Of a stretch of DNA of 36,503 nucleotides, positions 26,691-32,882 are shown one piece after another. The notes beneath the pieces are model-generated. The model saw nothing but the letters and a program-made list of their open reading frames with translations. It ran no database searches and was not told the DNA's origin. The stretch lies in contig VXMP01000073.1 of NCBI GenBank assembly GCA_009841075.1, positions 1-36,503 of the forward strand, written 5' to 3'. A program made the translations under genes and the position numbers. The stretch is from Acidimicrobiia bacterium (GTDB taxonomy: Bacteria > Actinomycetota > Acidimicrobiia > Spongiisociales > Spongiisociaceae). Numbering within the stretch: the first letter of the stretch is position 1; each line of letters opens with the position of its first letter.

Positions 26691-28205
26691 TCAACCCGAA
26701 TCCAACCCGTTATGGAGGGGAGGGACGGGATTTTGGGGAGAAGGGTGGACGGGGGGCGGAAATATCCTTAACGCCCGGGCCAGATACATGGCGGTCTCTG
26801 CCTTGGTTAGGTGCTCTTCGGGACAGAACCGAGCCGGAGGTGCCGAGCAAATCCCGGTGATGCCGGCCGCAACCACCTTGTTGATGGCCTCGGCGTGAGA
26901 ACTTTTACTGACATCGACGAAGACGATCTCGTGGTTCTCCGACAAGGGAAAGGCGCGGGAGATCAGCGAGGCCGCCTGAGCCCGGTTAACCATCTCATAG
27001 GGACAGAAACGGATCGGATCAACCGCACAACCTCGGGTTATCCCCAACTCGGCCAGACGCTCCACGAAGGGTGCCCACCAGCGGTCGGTCGGGCTATCGG
27101 CAAAACGGGACTTCAGAATCGGGTCCGGATCCTGCCCGTCGATGGTTCTCACCAGCCATACCGCCATCATCCACCGCCTGATCGGCTGATCCGGACATAT
27201 CAAATCCGGCCCGCATTCTGTACCGGCCAGGATTCCGTAGGCGGCCAGCTCGTCCACCCCGTCCAGGTAGTCGCCACTCTGATAGTCGTCGAACCCCTGC
27301 TCGTCCCGTCCGATGTCTTCGTATTCAAAATCGGGGCAGCCTCTAACCCCTCCGGTGGTGGCAGGGCGGGTGAAGCTGAACATCGGATTGAAACCGGAGC
27401 CGGGGTCGGTGGTGGTGAGATACCGTTCGATACCGTCGGCGATCGCCATCGCCTCCACCTTCTGCACGGCCGGATCGGCCAGGAGACTGGCCTCCGCAGG
27501 ATTAGACAGGTAGGCGGCCTCGGTGATAACGGTTGCTATGCCCGGGGTTCGTCTGAGAATCCCGTACAGATCTGCGTCGGTCTGGTAATCCCACACCGAG
27601 GAGGCACCTTGAAGAGCGGTTTTGCGCCAGTCGACGTCGTAGACGGCCAGCGCCCCCTGAACCTCCTCGTAGAGTATCCCGGCCAAACGCCTGGAGTTGG
27701 TGTTCCGGATCTGATGGAAAATCTCCGTACCAGGAAGGGTGGAACGGCTTACCGCCCCGCCGTTGTGATGGATCGAAATGAACACGTCCGGTTTCAGGGC
27801 TCGGGCTATTTCGGCCCTGACCACGATCGGGAGCCTGATATCGTCGGTTCTGGTCAAAACGGCACCGAAGCCTCGGCTGCGTAGCTCTTCGGCCAGCAAT
27901 TTCGAGACCGCCAGGTTCAGGTCTTTTTCGGACAGCCCGTTTCTACCTACCGCACCGGTTTCGCTTCCTCCGTGTCCCGGGTCGATAACCACCTCCACAC
28001 GGGACAGGTGGGTTCCTCCCCTGACGGTGGCCTCGTTCCAGCAGGTGGTGGTGACCAGGTAGCCGTCCGGCTGTTTTTCCCGTACCGGAAGCACCAGTCC
28101 GCTTTCGGTTACGACCACCCCGTCGCCGGGTGGACCGGTTTCCTGGGCACCGGCAGGTGAGGAGGGCATCACGGGTATTAAAGAAAGGAGAGCCGTAATC
28201 AGCAC
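26691..28205 (-). CDS. exported N-acetylmuramoyl-L-alanine amidase with SLH-like repeats
   Basis: Zinc amidase cutting the bond between MurNAc and the stem peptide of peptidoglycan. A signal peptide (about 1-21, ending SSPAGAQ) is followed by an Amidase_3 domain (about 70-265). Zinc ligands are His78 (DPGHGG), Glu93 and His146 (SIHHN); the catalytic Glu229 is in ITEAAYLSNP. The C-terminal region (about 300-490) has three repeats of the SLH type, two with the pattern C...FCP followed by an A/T-rich helix (CAVDPIRFCPYE, CSAPPARFCPEE); these likely anchor the enzyme to the wall. The Cys pairs suggest one disulfide per repeat. The GTG start has GGAGG 6 nt upstream. Confidence 0.9.
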   Translation of the reverse strand: MLITALLSLIPVMPSSPAGAQETGPPGDGVVVTESGLVLPVREKQPDGYLVTTTCWNEATVRGGTHLSRVEVVIDPGHGGSETGAVGRNGLSEKDLNLAVSKLLAEELRSRGFGAVLTRTDDIRLPIVVRAEIARALKPDVFISIHHNGGAVSRSTLPGTEIFHQIRNTNSRRLAGILYEEVQGALAVYDVDWRKTALQGASSVWDYQTDADLYGILRRTPGIATVITEAAYLSNPAEASLLADPAVQKVEAMAIADGIERYLTTTDPGSGFNPMFSFTRPATTGGVRGCPDFEYEDIGRDEQGFDDYQSGDYLDGVDELAAYGILAGTECGPDLICPDQPIRRWMMAVWLVRTIDGQDPDPILKSRFADSPTDRWWAPFVERLAELGITRGCAVDPIRFCPYEMVNRAQAASLISRAFPLSENHEIVFVDVSKSSHAEAINKVVAAGITGICSAPPARFCPEEHLTKAETAMYLARALRIFPPPVHPSPQNPVPPLHNGLDSG

Positions 28206-30565: not shown

Positions 30566-30746
30566 GCGACAAACCCCTTCTTCCCCCTGTTCATCAGGGT
30601 AATCGATCAATCTCTCCTTGCCTTAAGTCATCAGTCGCCGTCCTTTAACCCGAGAATGAGAAAAATTTCCCTTATATAAGAGTTTTTAGCCTTGTAAATA
30701 GTGATACATTTGATAGAGGTTCATTTTTGCCGACAGATGGAGGGTT
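30566..30746 (+). other. A/T-rich region upstream of the exported cassette
   Basis: A 181-nt gap that turns strongly A/T-rich in its second half. TGA-TACATT (an extended -10-like element) and TTATATAA occur in it, but no -35 is convincing. A GGAGG-type site lies just before the next ATG. It probably holds the promoter of the two exported-protein genes. Confidence 0.35.
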
Positions 30747-31637
30747 ATGGGCAATTCGGTCGAAAGAAGCCTTTTCCTGGTCTTTGTAGCAGGGGTTTTG
30801 GCCACGTTATACCTGTTCAACGATTCCGGTTCATCCCCACAGCCGGAAGGTGACCTACCTCCTGAGCCGACGGTTCAATCCGCTGACAGTCCAACTACGT
30901 CCGACCTGGAGATAGTCGAGATAACCGACCCCATTACCGGCGATCAACCGGAAGCGCTCGAAGAAACCCCTCCCGGCCACCAAGACACCCACGACCATAA
31001 TCACGACCACCATGATCACGACCGCGAAAATATCCCCACCACCACCCTCATCTATCCGCCCACCGGACGCATCGAGCAGATCGACCCGTCTCCACCACCG
31101 GAGGAAGACGGACAGCCCGGCAAGTGTGCTCCCATCCAAGAGTTGTGGGGAGGAGATAGCTATCCGGTCGAGGATCCCTGCACCCTGGCAGAGGTGCGCC
31201 GAGCCCTATACCTGGCCTATACCGGAACAGACGAACAACGCCGGTCGGTGATCCGGAACGGACATCTCCTAGACGAGGTTTTCGCCGCCCTGGACGACTA
31301 CGGACGAACCCATGATGCCGCCTTCTTCGATCCGGAACGGCGGGGCCAGGCCGAGGTTATCTTCGAAGGCATTTCCTGGCGAGGAGGTCCGGAAGCCGAA
31401 CAGGGAGTGATCGCGGTGCTGTTCCGGCTTAATCATCCCGAAATCGAGCCGACCGATTCCCTATTGGACACCCTGGTTCAGGTAGACGGACGTTGGAAAC
31501 TCTCCTACCGAAGATCGTATTGCGTAAAGGTGGTGGTAATCATGGAATTCATGGGAAATGACGTGCGCTGCCCGGTTGACCCGAATCCCGAGATCAACGA
31601 GGACGAGGCGACGGACTCGACCGGTAGGTACCGTTAA
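30747..31637 (+). CDS. unrecognised membrane-anchored exported protein with His-rich linker
   Basis: No family recognised. One N-terminal membrane segment (about 8-24), without a clear cleavage site, anchors a 270-residue exterior part. An acidic Pro/Thr/Glu-rich spacer (25-125) contains a His/Asp cluster at 78-92 with seven His, a likely divalent-metal binding patch. The rest (127-280) looks like a small alpha/beta domain; LDTLVQVDGRWKLSYRRSYC resembles the closing strands of NTF2-like domains, and Cys127, Cys145, Cys259 and Cys275 could form disulfides. The stop is followed directly by the ATG of the next exported protein, so the two are almost certainly co-translated. Confidence 0.75.
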   Translation: MGNSVERSLFLVFVAGVLATLYLFNDSGSSPQPEGDLPPEPTVQSADSPTTSDLEIVEITDPITGDQPEALEETPPGHQDTHDHNHDHHDHDRENIPTTTLIYPPTGRIEQIDPSPPPEEDGQPGKCAPIQELWGGDSYPVEDPCTLAEVRRALYLAYTGTDEQRRSVIRNGHLLDEVFAALDDYGRTHDAAFFDPERRGQAEVIFEGISWRGGPEAEQGVIAVLFRLNHPEIEPTDSLLDTLVQVDGRWKLSYRRSYCVKVVVIMEFMGNDVRCPVDPNPEINEDEATDSTGRYR

Positions 31638-32882
31638 ATGGCCCGGCTATATCGATACCTGTCGGATCAGCTGCCCAAGCCCCAAGCTGTGCTTACCACC
31701 TGGGTATGGATCTTTCTGGCCGGATTGCTGGCCGTTGGTGCCTGGTGGGCGTCACAACCGAGCGCCGCCGATCCTCCCACCACCTCCTGGAAGGCGGGCA
31801 AGTTGGGCACCACCTGGGAGTGGGAACAACATTGGAACTACTGGCAAAAACAGAAATGCACCATGAACGGGCTCTACAACGGGATACCGACCTGCGACGC
31901 CTGGTCTTCGGTCGGTAAGGTGTGGAAGCCGTGCGGAAAGAAAATCAGACCTCCCGACCCCGGCAGGATCAACAGCTGCAACATCGGTAGGCCAGGCGGC
32001 CACCAGCCGCACGGGGATGGGATCACGGTTAAGTACCGATACATAAAGCATGAGGATCGGCTGGGGCCGAAAGTATATTTCTGCCAAGGCAACAAGAACC
32101 TGCCCGCCAACACCGGTCCGGGCAACTGCGGAACCTGGGTAACGAACCCCACCCACACTCATTGCCCCGGCGATACCCTAAGGCACCCGCCCGACTGCAC
32201 GACCGACAGCACCAAAGCCTGGTTTACGACCACCTCCGCCAACCGACCCCGATCAACCACCGCCACCACCCGAAGGTCGCCGAGCAGAACCACCGCCACC
32301 ACCCGTCGAAGCTACACCACTACCACCCGGAGGCCGACCACCACCAGTGCCCCACCACAGGCGGCGTGCGCCACGCCCGAGGCGATCAACAGCTTCCGCA
32401 AGATCATCGACCAACTGGCCGGCCCTTCCCTTGGATTCATGCCCGCCCGCAACGGCTATGTGAGGTTTCCGGTGCGCGCCTTCTATCCGGGTGACCCTTC
32501 CCGCACCTTCAGCACCAAGGTGGTAGGAACCGGTGTGTCCCTCCGTATCTGGGTGAACGAGATCAGCTGGCGGATGACCGGTCTGGGACTAACAGACGGA
32601 ACCGACCTGGCACCCCGTACCTTCCGCCGCTCCGCCCTTTCCTATAGCAGTGCCGACTCTTTGAAGAGCCCGGCCGAGGTAAAACCCGGCGGCGTGCAGG
32701 TGGTCTATCTAAGGAGCTCGCTCCAGGCCGGTTATCAGAACGGTTATCCGGTCGCCCTGACCGTCACCTGGAAAGGCGAATGCCGTGAGGACGGCACCTC
32801 CGGCTGGACCTCTCTAGGGGAAAGGTCACAGAACGCCTCCTTCTCCTATGTGGTCTTCGCCATACGGAGCCGGCCTAGCTGA
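31638..32882 (+). CDS. unrecognised exported Cys-rich protein with Thr/Arg linker
   Basis: No family recognised. A membrane segment (about 19-39) follows a short basic N-terminus, either a signal peptide or an anchor. Residues 45-187 form a module rich in Trp, Gly, His and Cys (Cys74, 86, 99, 114, 149, 164, 176, 187), suited to disulfide bonding outside the cell. A Thr/Ser/Arg/Pro linker (about 188-240) with repeated TTATTRRS units resembles O-glycosylated stalks. The C-terminal domain (about 244-410) seems beta-rich, with Cys244 and Cys382. The gene abuts the His-rich exported protein and precedes pgm by 30 nt. A wall-associated binding or adhesive role is a guess. Confidence 0.75.
   Translation: MARLYRYLSDQLPKPQAVLTTWVWIFLAGLLAVGAWWASQPSAADPPTTSWKAGKLGTTWEWEQHWNYWQKQKCTMNGLYNGIPTCDAWSSVGKVWKPCGKKIRPPDPGRINSCNIGRPGGHQPHGDGITVKYRYIKHEDRLGPKVYFCQGNKNLPANTGPGNCGTWVTNPTHTHCPGDTLRHPPDCTTDSTKAWFTTTSANRPRSTTATTRRSPSRTTATTRRSYTTTTRRPTTTSAPPQAACATPEAINSFRKIIDQLAGPSLGFMPARNGYVRFPVRAFYPGDPSRTFSTKVVGTGVSLRIWVNEISWRMTGLGLTDGTDLAPRTFRRSALSYSSADSLKSPAEVKPGGVQVVYLRSSLQAGYQNGYPVALTVTWKGECREDGTSGWTSLGERSQNASFSYVVFAIRSRPS
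32255..32320 (+). repeat. 33-bp imperfect tandem repeat in the linker
   Basis: An 18-nt core (32255-32272 and 32288-32305) recurs with a 33-nt, 11-codon period and encodes the TTATTRR units of the exported protein. It stays in frame, so it is coding repeat expansion. Confidence 0.7.

Follow-up and report, generated by a model that had tools for sequence, protein, structure and literature searches.

Results

A conserved pair of abutting genes

The locus studied here raises the question of whether two abutting genes of unfamiliar sequence form a genuine functional unit and, if so, what that unit might do for the cell. Both genes lie on the forward strand of the window, by which we mean the whole 36,503-nucleotide stretch of Acidimicrobiia DNA that was analysed. 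Gene A (30747..31637) begins with ATG and encodes a membrane-anchored protein of 296 aa, and gene B (31638..32882), also with an ATG start, encodes an exported protein of 414 aa that is translationally coupled to A. The ORF coordinates (30747-31637 and 31638-32882) confirm that the stop codon of A (TAA) runs directly into the start codon of B (ATG) with no intervening nucleotide, as the initial annotation had claimed. A GGAGGG ribosome-binding site is located just 5' of the A start codon at 30747, and the B start has none of similar quality. The AT-rich intergenic region between the preceding M50 protease gene and A (30566..30746, forward strand) is, judged from its sequence, the presumed promoter of the pair. 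In the relatives that were read, the stop of A and the start of B likewise abut or overlap by 1–4 nt.

Whole-genome searches found A and B together in the same 13 of the 15 genomes of the window's family, distributed over three genera; the genomes compared are MAGs of varying completeness, and the two lacking A and B are only 72% and 78% complete. In all 13 genomes having either gene, both are present, adjacent and in the same order, which answers in the affirmative the question of co-occurrence raised in the initial annotation and contradicts the refuting outcome named there, namely homologues that never occur together. The M50 protease gene precedes the pair in 13 of 13 genomes, and a phosphoglucomutase (PGM-ALDH) gene is found downstream in 11 of 13. 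For two loci, L038 and L047, the available stretch contains no phosphoglucomutase match, and the L047 contig stops right after B. Further upstream in the window lies a gene for an N-acetylmuramoyl-L-alanine amidase with an S-layer homology domain (26691-28205, reverse strand), whose position upstream of the pair is conserved in nine relatives. The named matches from the genome-contig scan were MAGs labelled Acidimicrobiia or simply "bacterium", such as SB0661_bin_37, CO36387bin_10 and RHO1_bin_64, series which we take to be sponge-derived.

At the usable divergences, dN/dS was below 1 in both genes (about 0.30–0.50 for A and 0.23–0.40 for B). This excess of synonymous over replacement change in the aligned sequences indicates that purifying selection acts on A as well as on B. 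In G009 (L042, 9643-10515), gene A is frameshifted near its 3' end, about 26 codons before the end of the gene; the frameshift may reflect an assembly error. A and B are a genuine, conserved and previously undescribed gene pair.

Protein A carries a four-cysteine domain on a disordered linker

Protein A has three parts: a single membrane helix at the N-terminus, a long linker that is disordered, and a four-cysteine domain. The helix (residues 4-25, 30756..30821, forward strand) is predicted by hydropathy and by AF2, which places it at exactly residues 4-25, and it is conserved in the alignment. The linker is rich in Pro, Asp, Glu and Thr and measures 86–181 residues by the parse used. The core (residues 127-276, 31125..31574, forward strand) is common to the Tad-linked paralogues described below (hhalign E 3.9e-31 between the core of A and those of the paralogues), and all four Cys are retained in every aligned orthologue of A (12 of 12). 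NTF2-like proteins have an alpha+beta cone fold in which helices from the N-terminal side pack on a curved sheet. In the AF2 model of A, three helices are followed by a four-stranded sheet, with pLDDT values of 82–92 through most of the core. Many NTF2-like folds were among the top Foldseek matches to this model, the best of them at a non-significant E of 0.03; the weak matches included the conjugation proteins TcpC (3ub1) and TraM (4ec6), RsgI9 and the N-terminal region of PBP2a. Pfam searches returned no meaningful match for any of the 18 members of the A family, and the PDB profile search yielded only a scytalone dehydratase-like chain (3ef8, E 0.68), so that neither search linked A to a profile or a solved sequence of the NTF2-like superfamily. 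The NTF2-like label given to A in the initial annotation thus holds weakly, as a description of the model and of its non-significant Foldseek matches, and not as proven membership through a profile.

The linker contains a His/Asp patch, HQDTHDHNHDHHDHD (residues 78-92, 30978..31022, forward strand), in a region with pLDDT below 50. This patch had been taken for a metal-binding site. It is indeed present in window A, but the number of linker His residues falls from 3–7 within the genus to 0–1 in three orthologues that come from the two sister genera, and orthologues from the three genera share no conserved His cluster. Since no other genus conserves the patch, we dropped the metal-binding reading. 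A charge pairing between the acidic A linker and the basic B stalk was likewise rejected, as it is not kept across all genera.

Protein B ends in a divergent PKD-type domain

The layout of protein B is more elaborate. A predicted N-terminal membrane or signal helix (residues 18-38, 31689..31751; hydropathy and AF2) is followed by a Trp/Cys-rich beta domain with 8 Cys (residues 39-187, 31752..32198), which is weakly similar to the B-like proteins described below, by a Thr/Arg-rich stalk whose length varies among orthologues (residues 188-243, 32199..32366) and by a C-terminal PKD-type beta-sandwich-like domain (residues 244-414, 32367..32879), which is beta-rich in the AF2 model, all on the forward strand. 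B contains exactly 10 Cys and 17 Trp, and each of the 10 Cys is conserved in 12 or 13 of the 13 orthologues. The earlier portrait of a ten-Cys, Trp-rich and stalked protein is therefore accurate, and the predicted N-terminal membrane or export helices of both A and B agree with the export or membrane anchoring that had been claimed for the pair. Sequence searches against Pfam, NCBIfam and PDB gave nothing meaningful for window A or B, as expected from the initial claim that they match no known family. The outcome that would have undone that claim, each protein falling into an unrelated known family, was approached at the level of fold only, and no described family was matched.

The C-terminal domain of B matched b14 (L014), a secreted protein of another family in the order, with 18.7 bits, compared to a best score of 6.9 bits in 2000 shuffles. 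Relatives of b14 occur in 15 of the 61 genera of the order, with weak ones outside the class, and one of them, L177, exceeds the Pfam PKD cut-off (PF00801, E 3.6e-8). A profile of the b14 group aligned to window B over 145 columns with an hhalign probability of 90% and an E of 1.6e-6, giving the C-terminus of B domain-wide homology to a group with a proven PKD member. Neither window B nor any of its 12 orthologues reaches the PF00801 cut-off. The assignment follows from a chain of homology in which no single step lifts window B over a Pfam threshold, and by this chain the head of B is a divergent PKD-type beta-sandwich. An apparent B match in G306 (L061) fell within an ORF of glycosyltransferase type and was judged to be due to chance.

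With regard to gene arrangement, eight b14-type loci extended far enough upstream to be assessed, and in six of them the preceding gene overlaps the b14-type gene and encodes a membrane helix or lipoprotein signal followed by a Thr/Ser/Pro-rich linker. Five of these were flagged by script (L177, L180, L188, L189 and L192), and the sixth (L057/L014) was added manually, its upstream gene having been masked by the automatic start call. The background frequency of an anchor combined with such a linker was 22 of 330 genes (6.7%). In several of these upstream proteins the C-terminal strands resemble GIDGRWRMADLD, an ending also seen in NTF2-like domains, yet no homology of A to these partners could be detected. 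The two-gene architecture thus recurs without demonstrable kinship of the first gene, and the upstream partners of the distant B relatives are architectural parallels rather than shown homologues of A.

Paralogous pairs are built into Tad-type clusters

Within the family, profile searches revealed another six A-type loci spread over five genomes (G001, G002, G010 and G013 with one each, and G006 with two), and additional ones in six genomes belonging to one genus of another family. Beyond these, searches of 138 genomes from the order and 346 from the phylum gave no convincing A-type locus; matches in G055, in G230 and in the phylum sample were discarded since they covered only the linker, the helix or a short fragment. 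A B-like gene follows nearly every A paralogue, usually with a 4-nt ATGA overlap, the exceptions being L103 and L104. The B-like proteins share with B the order of helix, Cys-rich and Thr-rich parts, and their N-terminus aligned to that of window B with an E of 3.8e-5 over 38 columns, mostly signal helix (z of 4–5.6 against shuffled alignments). Their C-terminal heads are unrelated both to the head of window B and to the PKD-type group, and C-terminal homology of window B to the Tad-linked heads was accordingly abandoned. In one genome of the other family, G187, several A-type copies are located on different contigs (L100-L104 and one more match), some without a B-like neighbour; the A-type domain is an expanding family in this genome.

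Eight of the paralogous loci (L050-L052, L054, L055, L096, L099 and L100) combine the pair with CpaB/SAF-like, T2SSE, T2SSF-type and one or two small TadE-like genes. In these clusters T2SSE passes its Pfam cut-off and T2SSF falls just under its own, and the CpaB and TadE labels rest on sequence pattern and gene order. A further locus, L097, has a CpaB-like gene and the start of an ATPase gene before the contig ends. In one type of Tad cluster the pair lies at the downstream end, in the other at the upstream end, and the linkage counts are not independent of each other, since a minimum of two arrangements and a single clear transfer underlie them. An 8.2-kb block, which reaches from A to the small membrane proteins and includes both, is 79–86% identical at the DNA level between two families, which indicates from sequence comparison that pair and pilus cluster travelled between families as one piece. 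Genes resembling ligA and leucyl aminopeptidase flank the cluster in the other family. A tree of 18 A sequences places the window lineage in a clade of its own, and both other clades hold Tad-linked members; this tree is unrooted with long branches and is compatible with either the stand-alone or the Tad-linked state as the ancestral one. These results call for revision of the initial view of an isolated new system, since the A family occurs elsewhere in Tad-type clusters with a B-like gene and the C-terminal domain of B belongs to a widespread PKD-type group.

Three of the paralogue contigs (G006:C49, G006:C47 and G010:C88) also carry genes for a VirD4-type coupling protein, about 3–18 kb from the pair, and ArdC-like genes. 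G006:C49 additionally has a TrwC-type relaxase and, about 24 kb from the pair, a VirB4-like ATPase. On this conjugation-like contig, a 1625-aa protein (L116, 2-4876, reverse strand) combines the TrwC relaxase with helicase-type AAA and DnaG-type primase/Toprim domains, and the gene for a class II (B12-dependent) ribonucleotide reductase lies at 13273-15933 of L116 (forward strand). On both G006:C49 and G010:C88, the ORF after ArdC is about 2100 aa long (L092, 11161-17427, and L094, 8541-14864). Plasmid and PHROG searches gave no useful match.

The window locus itself contains no genes for a T2SSE ATPase, a T2SSF platform or pilins near A and B, and no VirB4, VirD4 or other T4SS genes. T2SSE loci are nevertheless present in all 13 family genomes searched, with at least two in all but the partial G012. 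The window's own genome has two Tad-type loci, TadZ-TadA-TadB-TadC-Flp on C27 and CpaB-TadZ-CpaF-TadB-TadC-Flp on C2, neither of which carries A or B genes. The ATPase of the Tad clusters that bear A and B is about 25–33% identical to the chromosomal ones.

Discussion

We tentatively favour the interpretation that A and B form a translationally coupled, exported surface module in which A is the tether and B the displayed head, the window copy being a vertically inherited, stand-alone branch. Coupled translation would place A and B at the membrane together, where A, anchored by its single helix, would bear the Cys-rich NTF2-like domain on its long disordered linker. This domain may hold or assemble B in the envelope, and B could then present its PKD-type head by means of the Trp/Cys-rich base and the Thr-rich stalk, so that the head would bind a partner surface in adhesion or recognition. 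The steps from A–B binding to exposure at the surface and adhesion, like any part that the window copy might play in a pilus, are our inference. The A branches within Tad clusters would probably serve as adhesin or anchor subunits, supplying the pilus with a head or an anchor. That the heads differ between loci while A is kept would fit a recognition function.

An unlikely alternative, with some points in its favour, is that the stand-alone pair acts in trans, as tip adhesin and anchor, for the chromosomal Tad/Flp pili. Such pili would be at hand, as T2SSE is found throughout the family genomes searched and the own genome has its two Tad loci without A and B, and the paralogous pairs built into Tad clusters make accessory subunits of this kind conceivable. 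However, the clusters that bear A and B use a distinct ATPase, the T2SSE loci occur order-wide where A and B are mostly absent, and the pair is physically unlinked to the chromosomal Tad genes. We give still less credence to the idea of a sensor or receptor, in which the NTF2-like pocket of A would bind a small extracellular ligand and B would be the surface partner of A, with no adhesion involved. Anchored extracellular NTF2-like DUFs of the same layout have been proposed as ligand-recognition domains (PMC3924330), but A has no intracellular signalling domain, with only a few residues preceding its N-terminal helix, and the conserved gene setting includes no regulator. It is very improbable that the pair is left over from a Tad cluster and on its way to being lost: the Tad linkage seen in two A clades out of three, a window locus devoid of Tad genes and the frameshift in G009 could be read in this manner, but the reading is largely refuted by conservation, with dN/dS well below 1, all Cys retained and intact genes in 12 of the 13 genomes, which span three genera. 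Finally, a metal-binding chaperone or delivery pair, suggested by the His/Asp patch of window A, can practically be set aside, as the patch is absent from sister genera and lies in a disordered, length-variable linker, and the conserved neighbours of the pair include no metal transporter.

If the tether-and-head interpretation is right, it gives a name to a recurrent two-gene module that has so far been annotated as two unrelated hypotheticals, and the pair becomes a handle on surface contact by uncultured, apparently sponge-associated Acidimicrobiia. The joint transfer of the A-B-Tad block between families provides a specific and testable link of the module to pili, including those encoded on conjugation-like elements. 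A bolder generalisation, which we regard as rather doubtful, is a phylum-wide class consisting of an NTF2-like anchor and an exchangeable stalked head that would serve surface recognition in Actinobacteriota and that Tad pili, some of them encoded on conjugation-like elements, would have adopted as an adhesin.

Comparison with known systems

The C-terminal domain of B resembles those of PKD domain surface proteins (PF00801) in that it aligns over its full length with a group including one member above the cut-off; it differs in that window B reaches no Pfam model and adds a Trp/Cys-rich domain and a stalk. As in the model of A, the VirB8/TcpC conjugation proteins (3ub1, 4ec6; PMC11753425, PMC8012802) have one N-terminal membrane helix and an extracytoplasmic NTF2-like fold, and these two structures were among the weak Foldseek matches of A, with no significant sequence or structural match. 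A is distinguished from them by its long Pro-rich linker and four invariant Cys, and the window locus by its lack of T4SS genes.

Tad/Flp (type IVc) clusters of Actinobacteriota offer a parallel in gene content. According to the portions of the account cited here (PMC5696575), conjugative plasmids of Cutibacterium acnes combine tad with conjugation genes, much as some of the A-B paralogue contigs add genes for a relaxase, a VirB4-like protein and VirD4, and the functional connection between pilus and conjugation is left open there; those portions name no NTF2- or PKD-type pair. In contrast to such clusters, the window pair stands without Tad genes, and by no profile are A and B CpaB, TadE/F/G or Flp.

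The PilV adhesins found on the conjugative type IV pili of TP114 and R64 (PMC9045228) provide an analogy only: in these pilus-linked proteins the head varies while the rest is kept, as the B-like heads vary in relation to that of window B. PilV and B share no homology, and the A-B paralogues are found in an actinobacterial Tad context. Should the phylum-wide generalisation be true, the anchor and head pairs adopted by Tad clusters would be the actinobacterial counterpart of PilV-type partner recognition.
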